Shown piece after piece: positions 5-19,405 of a stretch of 64,000 nt of DNA. The translations under genes were made by a program, and so were the position numbers. The number at the start of each line of letters is the position of its first letter. Position 1 is the first letter of the stretch. This stretch comes from Microbacterium aurugineum (GTDB lineage: Bacteria; Actinomycetota; Actinomycetes; Actinomycetales; Microbacteriaceae): contig NZ_CP078078.1 in NCBI RefSeq assembly GCF_023101205.1, positions 3,481,411 to 3,545,410 on the forward strand. Direction: 5' to 3'. The notes beneath the pieces are model-generated. The model was not told where the DNA came from. It ran no database searches and saw nothing but the letters and a program-made list of their open reading frames with translations.

Positions 5-694
5 TCATCGTGCCACTCCTGTCTGGCCGGTCGGCGGCGTCGGGCCGCCCGTGTTCTCGATGTGGGCAAGCGCGGCGAGCACGCGGCGATTGCCGGACTC
101 GTCCGGGTCGAAGCCCAGTTTCTGGAAGATGGAGGTGATGTGCTTCTCGACGCTGGCCTCCGAGAGGAACAGCAGACCGGCGATCGCCTGGTTCGACTTC
201 CCCTCGGCGATCAGCGCGAGCACGGTGCGTTCCCGCTCGGTGAGTCGCATCATCTTGTCGTCGCGATTGCGGCGCGTGAGGAGCTGAGCGACGACCTCGG
301 GGTCGAGAACGGTCGCGCCCTCCGAGATGCGCTGCACCGAACCGAGGAACTCCTCGACATCGGCGACCCTGTCCTTGAGCAGGTATCCGAGCGGACCGCC
401 CTGCGCCGCGATCAGATCCGAGGCGTATCGCTCCTCGACGTACTGCGAGAGGACGAGGATTGCGAGGGACGGACGCGAGGCCCGCAGACCGAGCGCGGCG
501 CGGATGCCCTCGTCGGTGAAGGTCGGAGGCAACCGCACGTCGAGGATGCAGAGATCCGGTGCACTATCGGCCACCGTCTGCTCGAGCTCCACCGTGTCGG
601 CGAGAGCGGCGACCACCTCGTGCCCTGCGTCCTCCAACAGGCGAACGAGGCCTTCTCTCAGCAGGACCGAATCCTCGCAGATCAGGATGCGCAC
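5..694 (-). CDS. NarL/FixJ-family response regulator
   Basis: DNA-binding response regulator of 229 aa, the usual length for the family. The receiver domain fills about residues 1-120, with acidic residues near the start (CEDS) and the likely phospho-acceptor D52 in ILDVRLPP. A LuxR-type helix-turn-helix lies near residues 150-215 (LTERERTVLALIAEGKSNQAIA, then VEKHI). The start is GTG and lies 13 bases inside the end of the upstream sensor kinase gene, so the two are translationally coupled and form one two-component system. The signal and target genes cannot be read from the sequence. Confidence 0.93.
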   Translation of the reverse strand: MRILICEDSVLLREGLVRLLEDAGHEVVAALADTVELEQTVADSAPDLCILDVRLPPTFTDEGIRAALGLRASRPSLAILVLSQYVEERYASDLIAAQGGPLGYLLKDRVADVEEFLGSVQRISEGATVLDPEVVAQLLTRRNRDDKMMRLTERERTVLALIAEGKSNQAIAGLLFLSEASVEKHITSIFQKLGFDPDESGNRRVLAALAHIENTGGPTPPTGQTGVAR

Positions 695-1950
695 GGTACG
701 TTCACCTCCAGGCTGGTCGGTCCGCCCTGCGGACTGTCGAGGCGGAAGGTCCCTCCCGCGGCGAGGATGCGGTTGGCGATGCCGTCCAGACCCCCACCGG
801 GCTGCACCTGAGCGCCTCCGATGCCGTTGTCCTCCACGCGGGCCCAGAGGGTGTTGCCCTCACGCACGCGCACGGTCACCCGGGCTTCACTGGCCCGCGA
901 GTGCTTGGCAGCGTTGGTCAGGGACTCCGCGATCGAGAAGTACACGGCGGCCTCGGCCTCGCGGCTGCACCGGCCGCCCATCCGGACATCGAGGTGCACG
1001 GGAATGTGCGATCTCCCGGCCAGAGCGGAAAGGGCGGCGTCGAGACCACGGTCATCGAGCACCGAGGCGTGAATGCCGCGAGCGAGTTGGCGGAGTTCGG
1101 TGATCGCTGCCTTGGTCGAGGTGTGAGCCTCGTTGATCAGCTCCTTGGCGGCCTCCGGATCGTTGTCGATCTTCTGCTGCGCGAGTCCGAGCGTCATCCC
1201 GACCGAGACCAGCCGCGGCTGTACCCCGTCGTGCAGATCGCGCTCGATCCGGGTGCGCTCCACATCGGCGGCGCGCACCGCACCCTCACGCTGGGCGGTC
1301 GACGTGCGGACACGCTCGGTGAGCTCGGTCTCCTTGCTGCGGATCACGATCGCGAGGGAGAGGGTTCGGTGCAGCAGTGCCAGCCCGATCATCCCGACGA
1401 CGCAGGCGGCGAGGCCGAGGACGCCGATCAGCGGAGCCCAGGCCACGGGGATCCCCCCGCCACCGAACGGTCCGATCACGGAGTCCGCGGCCGTGAGCGG
1501 GGCGAACGAGATGATGATCGACCACACCAGTCCCCAGAACAGTCGGAGGACGACGAAACCGAGCACGGCGGAGATGGCGAAGTTCGCCACTGCCCGCCAC
1601 ATCCGGCCGTCGATGGCCTGCCGTCCGAGGGACCGCAACCACCCGCCGAATCCGGGACGATCACGCGGCTGTACGCGCAGCGGCGCGATCGGCGTGCGGT
1701 AGAGCGCGCCGACACGAGCGACTTCGAACCAGCCGAGTCCGTAAAGGGCGTAGACGAGTCCGACCAGGAGGACGACGCCGATGCCGGCCGCGAAGAGGAG
1801 GCCGATGCCGGTGCCGAGAAGGCCGCCGAGCATGCCGAAGATGACGCCGCCGAGGACGCCGACGCCTGCCAGATGCAGGATCGTGAGGAAGATGCGCAAC
1901 GGCGGCTTCACCGCGGTTGCGGGAGTCGGGGTCGCAGTCTGAGTGGTCAT
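682..1950 (-). CDS. Two-component sensor histidine kinase (NarL-partner type)
   Basis: Membrane histidine kinase of 422 aa that should phosphorylate the response regulator directly downstream. The N-terminal 200 residues hold about four to five hydrophobic segments (near 20-70, 120-150, 170-200), like the putative sensor domain of this class. A HisKA_3 dimerisation helix follows with the phospho-accepting H240 in ERDLHDG, then a HATPase domain with N box (SLTNAAKH) and G1 box (DNGIGG). I chose the ATG at 1950 (MTTQ); the open frame extends upstream but has no membrane or kinase features there. The 3' end overlaps the regulator gene by 13 bases. Confidence 0.9.
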   Translation of the reverse strand: MTTQTATPTPATAVKPPLRIFLTILHLAGVGVLGGVIFGMLGGLLGTGIGLLFAAGIGVVLLVGLVYALYGLGWFEVARVGALYRTPIAPLRVQPRDRPGFGGWLRSLGRQAIDGRMWRAVANFAISAVLGFVVLRLFWGLVWSIIISFAPLTAADSVIGPFGGGGIPVAWAPLIGVLGLAACVVGMIGLALLHRTLSLAIVIRSKETELTERVRTSTAQREGAVRAADVERTRIERDLHDGVQPRLVSVGMTLGLAQQKIDNDPEAAKELINEAHTSTKAAITELRQLARGIHASVLDDRGLDAALSALAGRSHIPVHLDVRMGGRCSREAEAAVYFSIAESLTNAAKHSRASEARVTVRVREGNTLWARVEDNGIGGAQVQPGGGLDGIANRILAAGGTFRLDSPQGGPTSLEVNVPCAS

Positions 1951-2082
1951 GCTTCCACGGTACGGCGGGGCCGTTGCGCGCGGCACCGAGTCACCCGGAC
2001 ACTCTGTTTCGGGTTTTCCGTAACGCGTGCTCCGGATCTCCTGTGTCCCGAGCCTCCTTCCTGCTTCACTGGAGGCATGACG

Positions 2083-2787
2083 ATGCACGAAGCAGAACCG
2101 CACGGCGCCGGTCTCGGCCAGCGACTGAACTGGCTGCGCGCGGGGGTGCTGGGCGCCAACGACGGCATCGTCTCCGTCGCCTCCCTGGTCGTCGGAGTGG
2201 CCGGCGCCACGACCGACAACGCCGCGCTCCTCACCGCGGGCATCGCCGGCCTCGTCGGCGGAGCGATCTCCATGGCCCTCGGGGAGTACGTGTCGGTGAG
2301 CAGCCAGCGCGACAGTGAGCGCGCGCTGATCGCGAAGGAGAGCGAAGAGCTGCGCACGATGCCTGCGGTGGAGCTCGACGAACTCACCCAGCTCTACCGC
2401 GACCGCGGGCTCTCCGACGAGACGGCACGTCAGGTGGCGGTAGAGCTCACCGCGCACGACGCCCTCGCCGCTCACTTGGAGGTCGAGCTCGGCATCGACC
2501 AGGACGACCTCGTGAATCCGTGGCATGCGGCGATGTCCTCGGCGATCGCCTTCACTCTCGGTGCACTCCTGCCCTTGCTGGCCATCCTCCTCCCGCCCCC
2601 GGAATGGCGGGTGCCGGTGACCTTCATCGCGGTCCTCCTTGCTCTGGCCGTGACTGGAACCGTCTCAGCCAGGATCGGAGGATCCGCGCCGGTGCGCGCA
2701 TCGATCCGGCTGGTGCTCGGCGGAGCACTCGCCCTCGCCGCCACATGGCTCATCGGCACACTACTCGGCACCACCGGCGTCGTGTAG
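2083..2787 (+). CDS. VIT1/CCC1-family iron/manganese transporter
   Basis: Integral membrane protein of 234 aa of the VIT1/CCC1 family, which moves Fe(II) or Mn(II) across membranes. The family signature is visible near the N-terminus (RAGVLGANDGIVS, then GEYVSVSSQRD), followed by an acidic cytoplasmic metal-binding stretch rich in E and D (about residues 75-145) and three C-terminal membrane helices. Two ATGs compete: 2077 and 2083. The GGAGG at 2071-2075 is only one base from the first but seven from the second, so 2083 is preferred. It is divergent from the sensor kinase and ends at a strong bidirectional terminator. Confidence 0.9.
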   Translation: MHEAEPHGAGLGQRLNWLRAGVLGANDGIVSVASLVVGVAGATTDNAALLTAGIAGLVGGAISMALGEYVSVSSQRDSERALIAKESEELRTMPAVELDELTQLYRDRGLSDETARQVAVELTAHDALAAHLEVELGIDQDDLVNPWHAAMSSAIAFTLGALLPLLAILLPPPEWRVPVTFIAVLLALAVTGTVSARIGGSAPVRASIRLVLGGALALAATWLIGTLLGTTGVV

Positions 2788-2805
2788 CAACCGCTCGCGG
2801 GGACG

Positions 2806-2839
2806 ACGAAGGGCGGATGCCGCAGCATCCGCCCTTCGT
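2806..2839. terminator. Bidirectional hairpin terminator
   Basis: Perfect 15-bp inverted repeat (ACGAAGGGCGGATGC and its complement) with a 4-base loop, between two convergent genes. It would serve both the VIT1/CCC1 gene on the plus strand and the gyrA-DUF3566 transcript on the minus strand. Confidence 0.85.
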
Positions 2840-2855
2840 GTGTCCGTGTGAGGGA

Positions 2856-3260
2856 TCAGTTCGACATGAACCCGACGAGCAATCCGCCCGTCACCTTCAC
2901 GGCGAGGTTGTAGATGCCGGCGACCACGGCGCCGAGCACCGTGAAGACGATGAGGTTAAGGATGGCGACGACCGCTGCAAAGGCCATGACCTGCGGCAGT
3001 CCGACGACCTCGGACAGCACGAAAGCGTTGTCGGTGATGCCGACCAGGAAGCTCTCGGCCGTCGTCATGACGTTCGTCGCCTGGAGCACCAGGAAGATGA
3101 GGAAGAACGACACCATCGTGACGACCGCGAGGGCCACGGCTCCGAGGAACGACAGCTTCACCGCCGACCAGAAGTCGACGTAGACCAGACGAAGCCGGAC
3201 CTGCTTGCCGCCTGTCTTGCGTGTCGACTTCTTCGCCAGCTTGTCGGCCACTGTACTCAT
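2856..3260 (-). CDS. DUF3566 membrane protein downstream of gyrA
   Basis: Small membrane protein of 134 aa. A basic N-terminus ([19 protein letters not shown]) precedes the DUF3566 core, with one helix near residues 35-60 ([20 protein letters not shown]) and another near 90-120. DUF3566 proteins sit directly after gyrA in many actinobacteria, for example Rv0007 in Mycobacterium tuberculosis; their role is not established, though the neighbourhood hints at cell envelope or division. The start overlaps the gyrA stop by 4 bases (ATGA), so it is translationally coupled to gyrase subunit A. Confidence 0.88.
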
Positions 3261-5812
3261 GCGTCTGTATCCTCGGGGGTTTCTGTCGTCTCAGGTGCCT
3301 GGATCTCGGCATCCTCCGCTTCGGCCTCTTCTTCGGCGAGGCCACGCTCACCGTTACGGGCGATGGCGAGGATGCGATCGGCCTCCGTCGTCCGGGCGAA
3401 CACCACTCCCATGGTGTCGCGACCCTTGGCGGGGACCTCGGCCACGGCAGAGCGTACCACCTTGCCGCTGGACAGAACCACCAAGACCTCGTCGTCCTCT
3501 GCGACGATCAGACCGCCCGCGAGAGTGCCCCGATCGTCGTTCAACTTGGCGACCTTGATGCCTGTCCCGCCGCGTCCCTGGACCCGGTATTCCTCGATCG
3601 CGGTGCGCTTCGCGTAGCCGCCGTCGGTGACGACGAAGACGAACTTCCCCGGGGCGGCGACGGAGGCCGAGAGCAGGGAGTCGTCGTCGATCTTGAACTT
3701 CATGCCGCGAACACCGGCCGTCGCGCGACCCATCGGACGCAGCGCCTCATCGGTGGCCTCGAAGCGCACCGACATCCCGTGCCGGCTGATGAGGAGGATG
3801 TCGTCTTCCGCGTTCACGAGGAGCGCGCTGACCAGCTCGTCCTCCTCGTTCAGACGGATCGCGATGACGCCGCCCTGGCGGTTGGTGTCGTACGTGTCGA
3901 GCCGGGTCTTCTTGACGAGGCCCTCCCGTGTGGCGAGCACGAGGTAGTCCGCCACCCCGTAGTCACGGATGTCGAGCACCTGGGCGATGCTCTCATCGGG
4001 CTGCAGTGCGAGGAGGTTCGCGACGTGCATGCCCTTGGCGTCACGTCCGGCCTCCGGCACCTCGTAGGTCTTCGCGCGGTAGACCCGGCCCTTGTCGGTG
4101 AAGAACAGCAGCCAGTGGTGCGTGGTCGTCACGAAGAAGTGCTCGACGATGTCGTTCGCCCGCAACTGAGCGCCCTTGACGCCCTTGCCGCCACGGTGCT
4201 GGGAGCGGTAGTTGTCACTGCGCGTGCGCTTGATGTAGCCCTCGCGCGTGACGGTCACCACCATCTCTTCTTCGGCGATGAGGTCTTCCATCGACACATC
4301 GCCGTCGAAGCCGTGCAGGATGTGCGTGCGACGCTCGTCACCGAAGCGGTCGACGATGCCGGTCAGCTCTTCGCGGATGATCACACGCTGACGACCCTCG
4401 TCGGCGAGGATCGCCTTGTAGTCCGCGATCTGGGCCTCGAGCTCGTTCGCCTGATCGATGATCCGCTGACGCTCGAGAGCTGCGAGGCGACGCAGCTGCA
4501 TCTGCAGGATCGCATCGGCCTGGATCTCATCGATGTCGAGGAGCTTCTGGAGACCCTCGTTCGCATCCGCCGTGGTCTGCGACCGTCGGATGAGCGCGAT
4601 GACCTCGTCGAGCGCGTCGAGCGCCTTCAGATATCCGCGCAGGATGTGCATCCGCTTCTCGGCCTCGCGCAGCCGGAACTCGGTGCGTCGCACGATCACA
4701 TCGATCTGGTGGGAGATCCAGTGCGTGATGAACCCGTCGATCGCGAGCGTGCGCGGGACACCGTCCACGATCGCGAGCATGTTCGCGCCGAAGTTCTCCT
4801 GCAACTGCGTGTGCTTGTACAGGTTGTTGAGCACGACCTTCGCGACGGCGTCGCGCTTGAGCACGACGACCAGACGCTGACCCGTGCGGTCCGAGGACTC
4901 GTCACGGATGTCGGCGATGCCGGTGATCTTGCCGTCACGGGCCAGGTCGCCGATCTTGACCGCGACGTTGTCGGGGTTGACCTGATAAGGCAGCTCGGTG
5001 ATGACGAGGCAGGTACGACCCTGGATCTCCTCGACGTTGACGACCGCGCGCATCGTGATCGAGCCGCGACCGGTCCGATACGCCTCGTGGATGCCCTTCG
5101 TCCCGAGGATCTGCGCGCCGGTCGGGAAGTCGGGGCCGGGAACGCGCTGGATCAGACCGTCGAGCAGCTCCTCGCGGGGGATGCCGGGGTTGTCCAGCGC
5201 CCACAGCGCCGCATCCGCCACCTCGCGCAGGTTGTGCGGCGGGATGTTCGTGGCCATGCCGACCGCGATACCGACGGAACCGTTGACGAGCAGGTTCGGG
5301 AACCGGGCGGGGAGAACCGTCGGCTCCTGCGTCTGACCGTCGTAGTTGTCGGTGAAGTCGACGGTCTCCTCTTCGATGTCGCGCACCATCTCGAGCGCGA
5401 GCGGAGCCATCTTCGTCTCGGTGTATCGCGGAGCCGCGGCGCCCATGTTCCCGGGGGAACCGAAGTTGCCTTGCCCGAGAGCGAGCGGGTAGCGGAGGGA
5501 CCACGGCTGAACCAGTCGCACGAGGGCGTCGTAGATCGCCGAGTCGCCATGCGGGTGGTACTGGCCCATGACCTCGCCGACCACACGTGCGCACTTGGAG
5601 AACGACTTGTCCGGGCGGAACCCTCCGTCGTACATGCCGTAGATCACACGGCGGTGCACCGGCTTGAGTCCGTCGCGCACATCGGGGAGGGCGCGCCCCA
5701 CGATGACGGCCATGGCGTAGTCGAGGTAGCTGCGCTGCATCTCCGACTGCAGGTCGACCTGGTCGATCTTGCCGTGATCGTGTTCCGGTTCGGTGCGTTC
5801 TTCGTCAGTCAT
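3257..5812 (-). CDS. gyrA: DNA gyrase subunit A
   Basis: Breakage-rejoining subunit of the type II topoisomerase that introduces negative supercoils using ATP with GyrB. The 851-aa protein has the winged-helix/TOPRIM-interacting N-terminal half with the catalytic Y130 (AAAPRYTE), and the C-terminal beta-pinwheel including the GyrA box-like motif (QHRGGKG). The quinolone-resistance region reads [10 protein letters not shown] with S91 and D95, the residues found in susceptible enzymes of the E. coli type. It follows gyrB by 43 bases and is coupled to DUF3566. Confidence 0.98.
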
Positions 5813-5855
5813 GAATCAATCTCTCTGTCACACATCTGGTCTGAGCCCGCGGGCA

Positions 5856-7949
<2,094 letters not shown>

Positions 7950-10986: not shown

Positions 10987-11354
10987 TAGCCCCACAGTCC
11001 TGCGTATCCCTACGCCGAGGTTTCCTGTCATCCGTTCGTCGGTTCTCCCCACCGTCTGGTGATCGGATCGCGCCCTGAATGACTTAACTCCTTAACGGTG
11101 TTAACAGCTGTGGATACTGTGGATAAGTCGGTGGATATCAGGAGCGAGTAGGGAACTACACGCTTGTCAGTTGTGGAAACCCTGAGGAATCCGCGGGATC
11201 CCGGTCCTGGGGACAACGGAGGTGTTGTCCGAGTTATCCACAGGTTTGGGTGTTCAGCTCACATTCGTCCCGATGGAATCCACGATCATCCACAAGTTAT
11301 CCACATGTGCATAGAGGCATCTATCGAGAGATCAGAATCCCTGTCGGGCACACA
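10987..11354. other. oriC: oriC, chromosomal replication origin
   Basis: The 496 bases between dnaN and dnaA contain no gene. Three perfect TTATCCACA DnaA boxes are visible: 11118-11126 (minus), 11234-11242 (plus) and 11297-11305 (plus). One-mismatch boxes directly flank two of them: 11109-11117 (minus) and 11286-11294 (plus). An AT-rich stretch at 11078-11107 (TTAACTCCTTAACGGTGTTAAC region) is the best candidate for the unwinding element. Position, box density and flanking dnaA/dnaN make this the origin; the exact limits are estimated. Confidence 0.92.
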
Positions 11355-13968: not shown

Positions 13969-15039
13969 GTGGGTCTTGACCTTCTGCTCGCCAGCGCGAC
14001 TCCCAGCCCCGAACCTGCGGCGGGGGGATTCGACCTGCTCGGCACCATCCTCTGGCCGCTGAAGTGGGTCGTCGAGCTGATCCTCGTCGCCTGGCATTGG
14101 CTTCTGACCACCGTCGGTCTTCCGTCCGCATCGGGTCTGACCTGGGTACTGTCCATCGTCGGCCTCGTCGTCGTCGTCCGTGCTGCGCTGATCCCGCTCT
14201 TCGTGAAGCAGATCAAGAGCCAGCGAAAGATGATGGAAATCGCTCCTGAACTGCGGAAAGTTCAGGAGAAGTACAAGGGCAAGAAGGACCAGCTCTCTCG
14301 TGAGGCCATGAGCCGCGAGACGATGGCGCTCTACAAGAAGCACGGCACGACGCCGATGTCGAGCTGTCTGCCCCTTCTCGTGCAGATGCCGATCTTCTTC
14401 TCGCTGTACAGCGTGCTGAGCGATGTCAAGAAGCATGCGGAGCAAAGCCTCGGCGGTGTGGGATTGCTCAACCCCGAGCTCACCAAGGAGTTCTACGACG
14501 CCAAGCTCTTCGGGGTCGCGTCCCTGCACGAGACCCTCGGCGACGCGGTCGACGCCAACAACACCACGGCGATCATCATCCTGGTCACGCTCGTCGTGCT
14601 CATGATCGCCTCGCAGTTCTTCACGCAGCTGCAGATCATCTCGAAGAACCTGTCGCCGGAGGCCAAGACCGGCCAGGCGTACCAGATGCAGAAGATCATG
14701 CTCTACGTGCTGCCGCTGGGATTCATCTTCTCCGGTGTGTTCTTCCCGCTCGGCGTGGTCGTGTACTGGTTCATCTCCAACCTCTGGACCATGGGACAGC
14801 AGTTCCTCGTCATCCGAGAGATGCCGACTCCCGGCTCGGAAGCCGCCAAGGCCCGTGAGGAGCGACTCGCTCGCAAGGGCAAGGCGATCGATTCCTCCGG
14901 CAAGGTCGTCCCGATGGCTGCGTACGAGGCCGAGCAGCAGCGTCTGCTCGAGGAGGCGGAGAAGGCGAAGGCTCAGGCGCCCAAGCGTCAGCAGCCCGTG
15001 GGCAAGAAGCGTGCGAAGAAGAAGGGGAACGGTTCATGA
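13969..15039 (+). CDS. yidC: Membrane protein insertase YidC
   Basis: YidC/Oxa1/Alb3 insertase of 356 aa that inserts proteins into the cytoplasmic membrane with or without SecYEG. Membrane segments appear near residues 15-45, 55-80, 140-160, 195-220 and 240-280, with the cytoplasmic hairpin (KQIKSQRKMMEIAPELRKVQ) between the first two core helices. The C-terminus is a long basic tail (KRQQPVGKKRAKKKGNG), typical of Gram-positive types and able to contact ribosomes. Start GTG at 13969; the stop overlaps the next gene by 4 bases. Confidence 0.96.
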   Translation: MGLDLLLASATPSPEPAAGGFDLLGTILWPLKWVVELILVAWHWLLTTVGLPSASGLTWVLSIVGLVVVVRAALIPLFVKQIKSQRKMMEIAPELRKVQEKYKGKKDQLSREAMSRETMALYKKHGTTPMSSCLPLLVQMPIFFSLYSVLSDVKKHAEQSLGGVGLLNPELTKEFYDAKLFGVASLHETLGDAVDANNTTAIIILVTLVVLMIASQFFTQLQIISKNLSPEAKTGQAYQMQKIMLYVLPLGFIFSGVFFPLGVVVYWFISNLWTMGQQFLVIREMPTPGSEAAKAREERLARKGKAIDSSGKVVPMAAYEAEQQRLLEEAEKAKAQAPKRQQPVGKKRAKKKGNGS

Positions 15040-15527
15040 GTGAAACCATGACCGAGAGCTCCGAGCCCACCGTGGCTCAGCTCGAGAACGAAGGCGACGT
15101 CGCCGCGGACTACCTCGAGGAACTCCTCGACATCGCGGATATCGACGGTGACCTGAACCTCGACGTGCGTCAGGGGCGCGCGTATGTATCGGTGGAGGCG
15201 GAGGGCGATGGCCTCGCTCTTCTCTCCGCCCCGGACACGGTGCAGGCGCTTCAGGAGCTCACCCGCCTCGCGGTGCAGAGCAAGACGGGGTCATTCTCCC
15301 GCTTGATCCTCGACATCGCCGGCTCGCGTGACACGCGCCGTCGGCAGCTCGAGACACTGGTCGATGCAGCGTCCGCGAAGCTCGATGAAGGCTCCTCGCA
15401 GGCTTCGCTGCCGTCGATGTCGAGCTATGAGCGCAAACTGGTGCACGATATCGCGGCCGAGCGTGGCCTGGTGTCGGAGTCGTACGGTGAGGGCGCTGAC
15501 CGCCACACGGTTCTTCGTCGGCGTTGA
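15036..15527 (+). CDS. khpB: KH/R3H RNA-binding protein Jag (KhpB)
   Basis: Cytoplasmic RNA-binding protein of 163 aa of the Jag/KhpB family. An acidic N-terminal region is followed by a KH-like domain (VSVEAEGDGLALLSAPDTVQALQEL, then FSRLILDIAG) and a C-terminal R3H domain (SYERKLVHDIAAERGLVSESYGEG). It overlaps the yidC stop by 4 bases, as in most actinobacteria. The stop codon's last base directly precedes the first parS site. Confidence 0.94.
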   Translation: MSETMTESSEPTVAQLENEGDVAADYLEELLDIADIDGDLNLDVRQGRAYVSVEAEGDGLALLSAPDTVQALQELTRLAVQSKTGSFSRLILDIAGSRDTRRRQLETLVDAASAKLDEGSSQASLPSMSSYERKLVHDIAAERGLVSESYGEGADRHTVLRRR

Positions 15528-15543
15528 TGTTTCACGTGAAACA
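15528..15543. promoter_or_regulatory. parS site 1
   Basis: TGTTTCACGTGAAACA, the canonical ParB-binding palindrome, extended here to a perfect 20-base palindrome (15526-15545) that begins inside the khpB stop codon. It lies between khpB and rsmG. Confidence 0.92.
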
Positions 15544-15560
15544 TCGTCCGGGAACTGCAG

Positions 15561-16184
15561 ATGACTGAGATCGAAGGCGAGCCTGCGGTCGCCGCGGAAC
15601 TCTTCGGGGACCGCATCGATCTCGCTCGAGCGTTCACGGCTTCGCTCGCACGTGAGGGTGAGGAGCGGGGTCTGATCGGACCGCTCGAGCTTCCGCGTCT
15701 GTGGACGCGGCACATCCTCAACAGTGTGATCGCTGCTCCGCTCTTCCACGGTTCGGTCGCTGACATCGGATCCGGGGCGGGCCTCCCGGGCATTGTGCTC
15801 GCGATCGCGCGTCCTGATGTGAAGTGGACTCTCATCGAACCGATGGAGCGTCGGGTCACGTGGCTCACCGAGCAGGTGGAGGCGCTGGGACTGACCAATG
15901 TCGTGGTGCAGCGTGCGCGTGCCGAGGATGTTCATCCTGCCGAGGGTTTCGATGTCGTCACGGCGAGGGCCGTCAGTGCCTTGCGTACGCTCATCCCTCT
16001 CACTGCCCCACTCGTGCGCGACGGTGGGGAGCTTGCGTTGCTCAAGGGAATGAACGCCGCGAACGAGATCGACGCTGCCCAGAAGCCGATCAAGAAGTTC
16101 CGTCTGTCGGACGTGCGAGTGGAAGTGCTGGGGGAGGGTGTTCTCACCGAGACGACCCGCGTGGTTCGCGCCCGCGTTCGGTAG
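15561..16184 (+). CDS. rsmG: 16S rRNA (guanine-N7)-methyltransferase RsmG
   Basis: SAM-dependent methyltransferase of 207 aa that makes m7G in the 530 loop of 16S rRNA (E. coli G527). The SAM-binding motif is DIGSGAGLPGIVLAIARPD near residues 72-90; the N-terminal LPRLWTRHILNS and the later VVTARAVSALRTL block are family landmarks. It follows khpB and precedes parA, the usual order around actinobacterial origins, but here parA is 1.3 kb away across the parS array. Confidence 0.95.
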   Translation: MTEIEGEPAVAAELFGDRIDLARAFTASLAREGEERGLIGPLELPRLWTRHILNSVIAAPLFHGSVADIGSGAGLPGIVLAIARPDVKWTLIEPMERRVTWLTEQVEALGLTNVVVQRARAEDVHPAEGFDVVTARAVSALRTLIPLTAPLVRDGGELALLKGMNAANEIDAAQKPIKKFRLSDVRVEVLGEGVLTETTRVVRARVR

Positions 16185-16198
16185 TTCCTCCTGACATC

Positions 16199-16232
16199 AA
16201 GGCGGGGTGTTTCACGTGAAACACCCCGCCTT
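16199..16232. terminator. parS site 2 inside a terminator-like hairpin
   Basis: A perfect 34-base palindrome, with parS core GTTTCACGTGAAAC at 16209-16222 at its centre, extended by AAGGCGGGGT on the left and its complement on the right. It is 15 bases behind the rsmG stop, is GC-rich and is followed by TTTG on the plus strand. It therefore looks like both a ParB-binding site and the rsmG transcription terminator. Confidence 0.8.
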
Positions 16233-16486
16233 TGTCTGCGGTGGAGTTCGCCGTCACGAGGCCTTGGGCCTTCTGGTGCCGGTGGAGGGTCTCTCGGATA
16301 GAGCACCGATCGGCGCTTGAGGGATCTGCGTCGACGTGGCGTCGCGGAGGACGATGTGGGTATCGCGTTCGGCTGTCGGTGCGGACCACGCGAGCCGCTT
16401 CACGCAGTGCATCGTCGTGGATGCTCCGGTGTCGTTGCGTTTCGAGCCGCTGAGGCAACACCGACGGAGTGCTTGCTTTCCAATGA

Positions 16487-16502
16487 TGTTTCACGTGAAA
16501 CG
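16487..16502. promoter_or_regulatory. parS site 3
   Basis: TGTTTCACGTGAAACG, with a perfect 14-base core GTTTCACGTGAAAC at 16488-16501, preceded by GA as in sites 1, 4 and 8. Confidence 0.9.
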
Positions 16503-16678
16503 GAGACGCCCGTGCCTCGGACCGAGGTGCTGTGGTGCCGGCGCCCGTCTGGGGGAGGGGATGAGAACGGAACGTGACGTAAGCCCACGAGCGTCGTCTA
16601 GACCAGGCAACTGAAGACTGCGGTGATTCTTGCGAGGAGTCGTCAATGTTCAGCTCACAGAGCGGTGCTGGCCGTTGA

Positions 16679-16694
16679 TGTTTCACGTGAAACG
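16679..16694. promoter_or_regulatory. parS site 4
   Basis: TGTTTCACGTGAAACG, perfect 14-base core at 16680-16693. The flank GTTGA before it is shared with site 1. Confidence 0.9.
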
Positions 16695-16929
16695 GTGCCT
16701 GGCAGAGCGGCCGCACATTCTCGGTATCGCCGCACAGTAGGAGATCGTGGCGGCACGCACCGTTTCGATACGTCCCTCCCTGTGGTCGGGGACGCCTGAT
16801 CCGGTTTGCGTGGTTCCTCGGGAAGTTCATGCGGGGCTTCACGTATTGCTCTCTGCTGCATGACGCCCCCTCGCCTTCTTGTGGGCTTCCGTCGTCCCCA
16901 TGTGCGGTATCCCCGGCTGGGCGGAAGGA

Positions 16930-16945
16930 TGTTTCACGTGAAACT
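16930..16945. promoter_or_regulatory. parS site 5
   Basis: TGTTTCACGTGAAACT, perfect 14-base core at 16931-16944. Confidence 0.9.
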
Positions 16946-17174
16946 GCGCCTGACGAGTTTGCCGCTGGTCGGATGTAGGCGTATCCCGCCCGCTCCATCG
17001 TTGGGACTGCGCTTCCGTGCAGCTTGGGAAGGCCGTCCGGGGCATCTGTGTTCGTCGTGTGCCATCCCTGGGGCGCATCGGTGCGCTCGTGGTCGCGTGC
17101 ACGCTGACCTCTCACTCCTCGCAGGCGTCGGGGTGCTCGCCCGTAGGTGGCCCTCTATCTCCGGTTCAGAACAA

Positions 17175-17190
17175 CGTTTCACGTGAAACA
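17175..17190. promoter_or_regulatory. parS site 6
   Basis: CGTTTCACGTGAAACA, perfect 14-base core at 17176-17189. Confidence 0.9.
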
Positions 17191-17386
17191 CCCACTGATT
17201 GCGATTGTCCGAATGCTGATGCTGCCGGCGCGCTCGGGCGAGAGGGGGCGAGAAGACGGAGTTCTATCGGACATAGACGGGAACGGGGCGGGTGACGGTC
17301 AGTGCGCGTAAACCGGGTGAAGCTGAGGGTCATCGAGGAGATTGCCCTTGGGGAGGGCCGCTCGTATAGATGTGTCGACGCGCGAT

Positions 17387-17400
17387 GATTCACGTGAAAC
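17387..17400. promoter_or_regulatory. parS site 7 (one mismatch)
   Basis: GATTCACGTGAAAC, differing from the 14-base core at the second base only (A for T). The central TTCACGTGAA is intact, so weaker ParB binding is plausible. Confidence 0.75.
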
Positions 17401-17507
17401 GACCGTCGGGACCTTCTCCGAAGAACCGTGACGAGCGCGGGAGAGCCTGGTCGTCATCCAACGTCGCCCCGTGCGATTAGAGTGGAACGCGGCCCCGAAA
17501 GGAGTGG

Positions 17508-18434
17508 ATGTTTCACGTGAAACAGTCCGAGAAGACATCGGCGAACGAATCGTTCGGGATGGACACACCGCTCGCGCGGGAACTCGCCGACCTCTCTGCC
17601 CGGAGGCGCGCGCTTGAGGCAGCGAAGGTGAAGTTCACGGGGGACACCCGAGTCCTGACCGTCTCCAACCAGAAGGGCGGCGTCGGCAAGACCACATCGG
17701 CTGTCAACATCGCCTCGGCGCTTGCTGGCCTGGGGGCGAAGGTGCTGGTCATCGACCTCGACCCACAGGGAAACGCCTCCACTGCCCTGGGAGTTCCCCA
17801 TAGCGCGGACACCCCTAGTGTCTATGACGTCCTGATCGACGAGTTCCCTCTCGCGGAGATCGTGCAGCCGAGCCCGGAAGACCCCAACCTCTTCTGCGCC
17901 CCCAGCACCATCCACCTGGCGGGCGCAGAGATCGAGTTGGTCGCCCAGGTGGCGAGGGAGCACCGCCTCCGTCGAGCACTGCAGGACTACCTCGTCGACA
18001 ACGCGATGGATTTCGTCATCATCGACTGCCCTCCTTCGCTCGGACTGCTCACCATCAATGCGTTCACGGCCGCATCCGAGGTCTTCATCCCGATCCAATG
18101 CGAGTACTACGCGCTGGAGGGTCTGAGCCAGCTTCTCGGGAGCATCCAGATGATCCAGAAGCACCTGAACCCGGCTCTTCACCTCTCGACGATCCTGCTG
18201 ACCATGTTCGACGGACGCACGCGCCTCGCGCAGCAGGTCGCGGAAGAAGTGCGTACACACTTCCCGGATCAGGTGCTGGAGACGGTGATCCCTCGGTCCG
18301 TCCGAGTGTCGGAGGCCCCGAGTTTCGGCCAGACGGTGATCGCCTACGATGGGCAGTCCGCCGGCGCGATCGCGTACCGCGAAGCTGCCGTCGAGATCGC
18401 GTCGCGCATCGCGACGCAGAGCAAGGAGAAATGA
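17508..18434 (+). CDS. parA: Chromosome-partitioning ATPase ParA (Soj)
   Basis: Deviant Walker-type ATPase of 308 aa that binds DNA nonspecifically and moves ParB-parS complexes. The P-loop is KGGVGKTTSAVN at residues 56-67; the Walker A' region VLVIDLDPQGNAS and the IIDCPPSLG motif follow. The ATG at 17508 has AAAGGAG three bases upstream and reads MFHVKQ through parS site 8. The next plausible start is the internal ATG giving MDTPLAREL (residue 18), so the parS-encoded leader may be dispensable. It overlaps parB. Confidence 0.96.
   Translation: MFHVKQSEKTSANESFGMDTPLARELADLSARRRALEAAKVKFTGDTRVLTVSNQKGGVGKTTSAVNIASALAGLGAKVLVIDLDPQGNASTALGVPHSADTPSVYDVLIDEFPLAEIVQPSPEDPNLFCAPSTIHLAGAEIELVAQVAREHRLRRALQDYLVDNAMDFVIIDCPPSLGLLTINAFTAASEVFIPIQCEYYALEGLSQLLGSIQMIQKHLNPALHLSTILLTMFDGRTRLAQQVAEEVRTHFPDQVLETVIPRSVRVSEAPSFGQTVIAYDGQSAGAIAYREAAVEIASRIATQSKEK
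17509..17524. promoter_or_regulatory. parS site 8, overlapping the parA start codon
   Basis: TGTTTCACGTGAAACA begins at the second base of the parA ATG and encodes FHVK in the ParA N-terminus. ParB bound here would cover the ribosome binding region of the gene's DNA and could repress parAB transcription. Confidence 0.88.
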
Positions 18435-19405
18435 TGGCGAAGCGCACAGGGCTCGGTCGGGGAATCGGGGCGCTGATCCCCACCGCAGATCAGGCGGAGC
18501 GTCCCGTCGACGTCTTCTTCCCCGGATCCAGTCTGCGACCGGCGGAGACGGAGGCGACGATCGGTCCGGATTCCGAGACTCCCGAGCTCGAAGAGGTGCC
18601 CGGGATTCACCTGATCCAGGTGGATCCGAACTCGATCGTCGCGAACCCCCGACAGCCGCGTACGCATTTCGATGCGGATGACCTCGCGGAACTCGTGCAC
18701 AGCGTCCGCGAGTTCGGTGTGCTGCAGCCCGTGGTCGTCCGCAAGAACGCGACAGGCGATTACGAGCTCATCATGGGGGAGCGGCGTACCCGTGCCGCAC
18801 GTGAGGCCGGTCTCGACGTCATCCCCGCGATCGTCCGCGATACCGCCGATGAAGACCTTCTGCGCGACGCCCTCCTGGAGAACCTGCACCGCTCCGAGCT
18901 GAATCCGCTGGAAGAAGCGTCGGCATACCAGCAACTGCTCGATGACTTCGGCATCACCCAGGAAGAGCTCGCCACACGGATCGGTCGCTCGCGTCCGCAG
19001 ATCAGCAACACCATCCGTCTGCTCAAGCTGCCGGTCCCCGTGCAGCAGCGGGTCGCAGCCGGAGTGCTCACGGCTGGACACGCCCGCGCGATCCTCAGCC
19101 TCGAGACTCCGGAGTCGATGCAGCGCCTCGCCGATAAGGTCGTGAACGAAGATCTTTCGGTGCGCGCGACGGAGGAGGCGGCGAAGGCGCAGCCGGCCGC
19201 CGGCAAGTCGGCGAAGGCGACCCCGGGGGCGCGCCGCGCGTATCTCGACGAGGTGGCCGGCAAACTCGGCGACCGACTGAACACACGGGTCAAGATCGCC
19301 CTCGGCGCTCGTAAAGGCCAGGTCACAATTGATTTCGCTTCCATCCAGGACCTCAATCGGATCCTCGAGGAGCTCGGCGAAAGCGGCTACGGCTCGGCGC
19401 GATGA
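18434..19405 (+). CDS. parB: Chromosome-partitioning protein ParB (Spo0J)
   Basis: CTP-dependent DNA clamp of 323 aa that loads at parS and spreads. The N-terminal CTPase domain has NPRQPR (71-76) and the arginine motif GERRTRAAR (115-123); ENLHRSELNPLEEA (149-162) follows; the helix-turn-helix is at about 172-197 (ITQEELATRIGRSRPQISN). The C-terminal dimerisation domain ends near residue 320. Of ATGs at 18431 and 18434 the second has better spacing (5 bases) from AAGGAG. Its likely targets are the parS array just upstream. Confidence 0.96.
   Translation: MAKRTGLGRGIGALIPTADQAERPVDVFFPGSSLRPAETEATIGPDSETPELEEVPGIHLIQVDPNSIVANPRQPRTHFDADDLAELVHSVREFGVLQPVVVRKNATGDYELIMGERRTRAAREAGLDVIPAIVRDTADEDLLRDALLENLHRSELNPLEEASAYQQLLDDFGITQEELATRIGRSRPQISNTIRLLKLPVPVQQRVAAGVLTAGHARAILSLETPESMQRLADKVVNEDLSVRATEEAAKAQPAAGKSAKATPGARRAYLDEVAGKLGDRLNTRVKIALGARKGQVTIDFASIQDLNRILEELGESGYGSAR

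Follow-up and report, generated by a model that had tools for sequence, protein, structure and literature searches.

We analyzed a 64,000-bp stretch of the Microbacterium aurugineum chromosome (hereafter, the window; positions 3481411–3545410 of a complete, single-contig chromosome of 3,626,995 bp), which carries a dense array of parS-like sites near the partition gene parA. In chromosome partitioning, ParB loads at parS, slides, bridges DNA, drives ParA, and recruits SMC. The array probably represents the complete chromosomal ParABS centromere, packed in 2 kb beside the predicted replication origin (oriC), with its sites read as ParB-binding from their motif. More tentatively, at what we judge to be not quite even chances, we propose that the chromosomal centromere in the genus Microbacterium and in some other genera of Microbacteriaceae is a regional, satellite-type element of ~0.1–8 kb that is continually rebuilt by tandem amplification, divergence, and replacement. 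Nothing would persist but the ParB-loading motif and the end next to parA, joined in close relatives by the end next to rsmG; selection would act on motif number or density, perhaps on length, and not on sequence.

A single parS array on the chromosome

Scanning the window with up to two mismatches located eight parS-like sites at 15529–17523, seven matching GTTTCACGTGAAAC exactly and one with a single mismatch, as the original prediction had stated. Shuffling gave an expectation of 0.08 GTTTCACGTGAAAC matches per 64-kb window against the eight observed, and a chance origin of the array was rejected on this ground. The eight sites were the sole matches on the whole chromosome at up to one mismatch, and all of them therefore lay inside 2 kb; the complete-genome scan proposed as a check of the prediction thus added none. 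Allowing two mismatches added one match (C1:23583, ~152 kb away, assuming a circular chromosome), which is at chance level, since a backward control pattern also yielded one match at this threshold. Start-to-start spacings were 680, 279, 192, 251, 245, 211, and 123 bp, the 680-bp interval between the first two sites being the stretch that holds rsmG. The scattered arrangement described for actinobacteria, with sites over tens of kilobases or more, was not found in this genome.

The neighboring genes encode a ParA ATPase and, adjacent to it, a ParB with N-terminal, HTH, and C-terminal domains, as in a ParABS system (Pfam). Because all sites with up to one mismatch lie in one array beside these two genes, the compact centromere suggested earlier appears to be the natural reading of the sequence. 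The dense array between khpB and parA was borne out, although its last member covers codons 1–6 of parA, where the start reads ATG TTT CAC GTG AAA C, and the array is therefore not strictly upstream of the gene. Likewise, the ~1.3-kb rsmG–parA gap lacked coding signal as predicted, but six sites, not seven, lie inside it, the last site of the array overlapping the parA start. The start-codon overlap, a 34-bp palindrome at the second site, and the nearly species-private spacer DNA had been overlooked.

Evidence on coding content came from a codon model, which gave no positive best frame in any of ten 240-bp segments of the window gap. The model, trained and checked on the same neighboring genes, gave positive best frames in 99% of 2,259 segments of those genes, in 7.8% of 1,059 segments of gaps from the genus, and in 0/1,059 shuffled segments. 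Five of the open reading frames (ORFs) overlapping the window gap, to which the Pfam scan of the gap was confined, had no match at E 0.01. On the basis of the codon model and this Pfam result, a coding gap in the window was ruled out. An Rfam scan of the window returned no RNA hits.

parS arrays across the genus

We surveyed 59 Microbacterium genomes for sites, fetched 58 parA loci, and measured gaps in 53 of these, whose fetched stretch included rsmG. Genome G037 was left out of the locus set, having no site, no close ParA match, and a fragmented assembly (110 contigs); G003, G009, G039, G050, and G054 were left out of the gap lengths because rsmG was not in the stretch, several of which end at contig ends. 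Because ParA of five genomes carries a long N-terminal extension, a second set of gap lengths ("conservative" values) was taken from the upstream-most parA start.

Sites were present in 58/59 genomes, with 3–18 per genome (median 7). At the genome-wide level, 432 of the 448 sites of the 58 genomes (window genome included) were at the parA locus, some loci ending at contig ends; all sites fell within the fetched locus in 47/58 genomes, mostly within a few kilobases of parA. In the 53 genomes with rsmG, the gap and the parA start together accounted for 358/410 sites. Gap length ranged from 85 to 8,607 bp (median 2,048; conservatively 60–7,707, median 2,039), and site number rose with it (Spearman 0.81). 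Clusters as dense as that of the window, regarded beforehand as evidence against a special array, did occur in some relatives: the densest 2 kb held a median of six sites and reached the maximum of eight in 6/53 genomes. The window genome is thus typical of its genus, at the dense end and not apart from it.

A site overlapped the parA start in 40/53 genus genomes and in 37/79 genomes measured from other genera of the family. Across the genus, bases flanking 252 exact interior sites extended the palindrome as A-Y-core-R-T, with position −1 being T at a frequency of 0.60 (background 0.18), C at 0.32 (0.31), and G at 0.06 (0.35). This preference indicates constraint beyond the core used in the search.

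Distribution in the family and order

The family sample comprised 80 genomes fetched from 115 non-genus genomes with a ParA match, from 73 genera; 79 were measured, G060 being left out because rsmG was not in the stretch. Seven genera contributed two genomes, some picked for high site counts, and the family figures therefore tilt toward large arrays. The median gap in these genera was 97 bp (61 conservatively), with at least 800 bp in 21/79 (18 conservatively). In short-gap genera, frequent positions of sites were the khpB–rsmG interval, the parA start, and the DNA after parB, and some arrays lay after parB or before rsmG. As separate observations, dense arrays were located mostly before rsmG in G149 (17 sites; L250) and G076 (10 sites; L238), and after parB in G172 and G130 (L252, L186).

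On a FastTree phylogeny of RsmG, ParA, and ParB (132 rows; 39/129 inner branches unresolved), the long-gap state required 18 changes. In one clade of 63 rows, made up of the genus and neighbors, 51 rows were long-gap and apparent reversions occurred, G034 (97 bp) for example lying next to G042 and G017 (~1.4 kb). In other families of the order (20 genomes of 40 planned), the gap was at least 800 bp in 3/20, and several genomes had clusters after parB. Separately, none of eight genomes of order family f8 (L281, L282) had GTTTCACGTGAAAC at up to one mismatch, with a ParA match in all eight; ParB of this family may read another motif.

Compact arrays are therefore common in this branch of actinobacteria, and the earlier claim that the window array is unusual among actinobacteria is not supported: the genus has a median of seven sites, mostly within a few kilobases of parA, and many genomes of the family and order also cluster sites near parAB. 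The contrast with scattered sites better fits Streptomyces, or Corynebacterium (PMC7083940).

Turnover of the DNA between sites

A search of 366 genus genomes (E 1e-5) matched the gap interior only in the window genome itself and in G189, which is labeled as the same species. In a further 82 genomes, matches were confined to the final 57 bp or, for some genomes, to the first 71 bp, which include parS 2; the remaining 282 were unmatched. Between the window genome and G189, khpB, rsmG, and parA were 97–98% identical, whereas the spacers differed at 117/1,235 positions (90.5% identity); indels measured 1, 3, 5, and 14 bp. The seven cores at 16209–17523 differed at 2/98 positions (Fisher P 0.009 vs spacers), and the third codon positions of the three flanking genes at 37/681, also below the spacers (P 0.0016). 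Each of the two genomes had one imperfect parS copy, at different sites, a pattern that looks like single copies decaying within a maintained set.

For 41 nearest-neighbor pairs with both gaps at least 300 bp (parA 79–93% identical), the alignable fraction of the parS-masked gaps had a median of 0 and a maximum of 0.30. Gap lengths of the same pairs, which are not independent, correlated with a Spearman coefficient of 0.60.

Satellite arrays in relatives

Tandem satellites, defined as direct repeats with one parS per unit, were evident in G046, G039, and G033 but not in the window array. G046 has a 3-kb tandem repeat with a unit of ~290 bp and parS in most units; across ten full units, identity was 0.63 overall and 0.93 at parS (rank 1 of 246 windows). 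G039 has 12 units of ~287 bp (0.56 overall, 0.90 at parS; rank 4 of 233), and G033 has two repeats with units of 195 and 113 bp, five units of one showing 0.77 overall and 0.97 at parS (rank 1 of 170). For three of the four unit families, the parS core ranked first or nearly first in conservation among 14-column windows. Satellite units in the relatives span 110–290 bp, most with parS. The G046 and G039 satellites matched each other weakly (doubled consensus: 62% over 470 bp, E 2e-9), and homology between them is not claimed. A tandem repeat of 170 bp (3.2 copies by TRF), within which parS are spaced at 169–171 bp, occurs in G149, which belongs to another genus. Six partial repeat copies were found in G010. 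As a separate observation, the G043 gap contains at ~3814–4747 (L170) a 148-bp tandem repeat of about six copies that has no parS and lies inside the parS array.

Proposed mechanism

Each 14–16-bp palindrome would be a ParB entry site, at which clamps of ParB and cytidine triphosphate (CTP) would load and slide along neighboring DNA; ParA would move the ParB mass, which in turn would recruit SMC. The gap would serve as a largely non-coding carrier of loading sites, with selection holding the motif, its place, and the approximate site number but not the intervening DNA. Arrays would probably expand by tandem duplication of parS-bearing segments and then decay to motifs alone, a stage that the window array appears to resemble. 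Having all sites in one place could produce a single ParB domain and a single SMC entry point, a gene-poor array crossed by little transcription could shield the clamps, and the start-codon site could couple ParB to parAB expression. We are less sure of the duplication history than of the centromere reading.

Weighing the alternatives

Several observations weigh against the centromere reading and array history proposed above. With respect to turnover, conservation was tested in one strain pair, G189 being the only conspecific comparison. The gap search scored one or two candidates per genome, so that weak interior homology may escape it, and when the fetched gaps were compared more sensitively, one interior match to another species emerged (G010; 64% over 121 bp, with a parS). 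Gaps are also not always gene-free. GIY-YIG ORFs occurred in eight genomes among 138 loci searched (G012, G016, G017, G033, G038, G041, G045, and G137; seven of the genus and one of another), all within the rsmG–parA gap and its parS array and at least one of them broken, and GNAT-like ORFs occurred in the gaps of G021 and G031, in addition to one further unknown ORF pair. A GIY-YIG nuclease in the gap could conceivably drive array rearrangement. As for need, C. glutamicum with one parS grows like the wild type (PMC7083940), and eight sites need not be required.

With respect to duplication, parS was not best kept in the second G033 repeat (rank 37 of 97), and among parS-masked gaps of at least 600 bp (G039 not in the set), repeats pairing parS sites were found in 8/44, any self-hit occurring in 0/220 shuffles. 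The units of the window share no homology past ~30 bp at the sites and gave no masked self-hits, and origin of the window array by duplication is for this reason inferred from relatives and flank similarity. That similarity is weak, 62 of 2,000 random sets being as similar. The GAT flank of palindromic sites was same-sided within arrays beyond expectation (15/2,000 simulations as extreme; 4 to 0 in the window), in a test that takes in satellite genomes with visible repeats; same-side flanks are what direct duplication would be expected to leave. With eight visible-repeat genomes excluded, 10-bp flanks were weakly more alike within than between genomes (6.26 vs permuted 6.07; 12/500 as high).

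An alternative that we consider a real possibility, albeit a doubtful one, is that the array is an ordinary parS cluster in a gap that merely tolerates parS, and that its fast divergence is that of any non-coding DNA. Clusters beside parAB are common, as seen in the other family genera, where the gap is short and sites often lie at the khpB–rsmG junction, on the parA start, and downstream of parB. The genus gaps, with a median of 2 kb and up to 7.7 kb conservatively, are however long for mostly non-coding DNA, which drift with deletion bias would be expected to shrink, and gap length is alike in the nearest relatives (the 41 non-independent pairs) despite a median alignable fraction of 0. In favor of tolerance, transposon sequencing in Caulobacter indicated that new parS sites are tolerated best close to old ones (PMC5815017).

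It seems improbable to us that regulation came first, such that sites at the rsmG end and parA start let ParB tune rsmG–parAB transcription and the interior sites are a by-product. The frequency of parS on the parA start in the genus and family agrees with this idea, as does the last ~56 bp of the gap being the portion most often common between species; autoregulation, however, would need only the start-codon site, leaving the 3–18 sites and the satellites unexplained. Finally, we regard as highly implausible that the gap is a dead gene or insertion hot spot with parS-like mobile-element repeats: small ORFs (GIY-YIG, GNAT), possibly insertions, do occur in a few gaps, but the window gap has no coding trace, GTTTCACGTGAAAC is not found elsewhere in the genome as a dispersed element would be (a mobile repeat was rejected accordingly), and nearly all sites of the 58 genomes, 432/448, are at the partition locus.

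Partition genes, origin, and local features

The coordinates of the features are listed in Table 1. ParA of the window matches that of Microbacterium sp. MYb54, among the best named relatives, at 94%. ParB aligns to solved Spo0J/ParB structures and retains the GERR and ENLxR motifs, which function in CTP binding, and the genome has an SMC-type ORF with a frame of 1,193 codons. The total of 11 DnaA-box-like hits in the window was not above the 8.4 expected by chance, and only the grouping of six of them stands out; the genes flanking this group are presumably dnaA and dnaN, as named from their ORFs. The array lies 4.2–6.4 kb from the group and is thus proximal to the predicted origin.

The RNA of the 34-bp palindrome around parS 2 was predicted to form a strong hairpin (−32.7 kcal/mol for a 50-nt stretch), making it a possible candidate for the rsmG terminator. 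A consensus scan of 15400–17600 found no sigma-70 promoter and no terminator. A parS in the terminator was rejected as a genus rule: a site no more than 60 bp from the rsmG stop was present in 22/53 genomes, and its palindrome extended by a median of 2.5 bp. The final 56 bp before parA probably comprise the parA promoter and leader.

As a further observation on the parA start, ParA of G026, G043, G046, G055, and G058 (L171, L170, L169, L165, and L168) has a long acidic, low-complexity N-terminal extension, which carries MN(N/K)WLRRLGMGGRRD near its start and the parS-encoded FHVKQ in frame inside.

Table 1. Features of the parS array and partition locus (window coordinates).
Feature	Position	Strand	Remarks
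parS 1, exact	15529..15542	.	In the 33-bp khpB–rsmG gap, beginning 2 bp past the khpB stop; identical in same-species G189
parS 2, exact	16209..16222	.	25 bp past the rsmG stop; palindrome center; identical in G189
34-bp perfect palindrome around parS 2	16199..16232	.	Extends 10 bp past either end of the core
parS 3, exact	16488..16501	.	Motif scan and G189 comparison
parS 4, exact	16680..16693	.	Motif scan and G189 comparison
parS 5, exact	16931..16944	.	Motif scan and G189 comparison
parS 6	17176..17189	.	Exact in the window; one mismatch in G189
parS 7	17387..17400	.	One mismatch in the window (GATTCACGTGAAAC); exact in G189
parS 8, exact	17510..17523	.	Covers parA codons 1–6; encodes MFHVK
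rsmG–parA gap, 1,323 bp	16185..17507	.	Six parS inside (16209–17387); start-codon site at its end
Final 56 bp before parA	17452..17507	+	Gap portion most often common to other genus genomes
khpB (R3H domain)	15036..15527	+	Pfam PF01424
rsmG (GidB)	15561..16184	+	Pfam PF02527
parA (AAA_31)	17508..18434	+	Pfam PF13614
parB (ParB_N, HTH_ParB, ParB_C)	18431..19405	+	Pfam; GERR and ENLHRSELNPLEEA motifs
Six DnaA-box-like sites, probable oriC	11109..11305	.	Between dnaA and dnaN; 6/11 window hits

Significance and comparison with known systems

The interest of these data lies in the evolutionary pattern and not in the window array. The genus forms a graded series, running from gaps of ~60–90 bp to arrays of up to ~7.7 kb, and includes satellites as well as decayed arrays and one conspecific pair; this allows testing of how arrays grow and turn over and of the benefit of many parS in one place. 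If length is kept without sequence, the gap would be bulk DNA that is non-coding yet under selection, within a compact genome. If continual rebuilding holds, these arrays would be a bacterial counterpart of fast-evolving satellite centromeres.

In eukaryotic satellite centromeres with the CENP-B box, a short, conserved protein-binding motif is embedded in rapidly changing repeats. The likeness to those of plants and animals is an analogy only, with no shared proteins or ancestry and with differences in size and specification. In sopC of plasmid F and similar plasmid centromeres, tandem repeats carry one ParB site per unit. The G046, G039, and G033 arrays resemble these in being tandem with one ParB site per unit; they differ in that sopC-type centromeres are on plasmids, have another ParB type and motif and a much shorter unit, and the window array is not tandem.

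Among chromosomal systems, that of M. xanthus is similar in having one main parS cluster: 22 parS lie between 9108251 and 9111304 (~3 kb), ~4 kb upstream of parA, with further sites reported far away (one) and close to the ends of the cluster (two) (PMC3899335). It is denser than the window array, and its consensus is TGTTCCACGTGGAACG (PMC3899335). C. glutamicum, also an actinobacterium, has ten parS, nine of them intergenic, but these are spread across 35 kb, 73 kb from oriC, and not in one intergenic array (PMC7083940). In Caulobacter crescentus, the five strongest parS are within 5 kb in a cluster ~8 kb from ori, but parS lie within essential or costly genes, and the part of the source available describes no non-coding array (PMC5815017).

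More generally, parS are clustered within 5–40 kb in most bacteria, and clustering of strong parS is thought to prevent SMC collisions (PMC8357415), whereas separated parS have been suggested to favor SMC loading, and single clusters have been called commoner on plasmids (PMC10387095). A single dense array such as that of the window bears on this question of SMC loading. Among the literature matches listed, in which most subscription journals were not covered, no title concerned Microbacterium parS or chromosomal tandem-satellite parS. Compactness itself is already known from the systems above; what appears to be new in Microbacterium is a one-cluster ParABS centromere whose DNA would be rebuilt between species.

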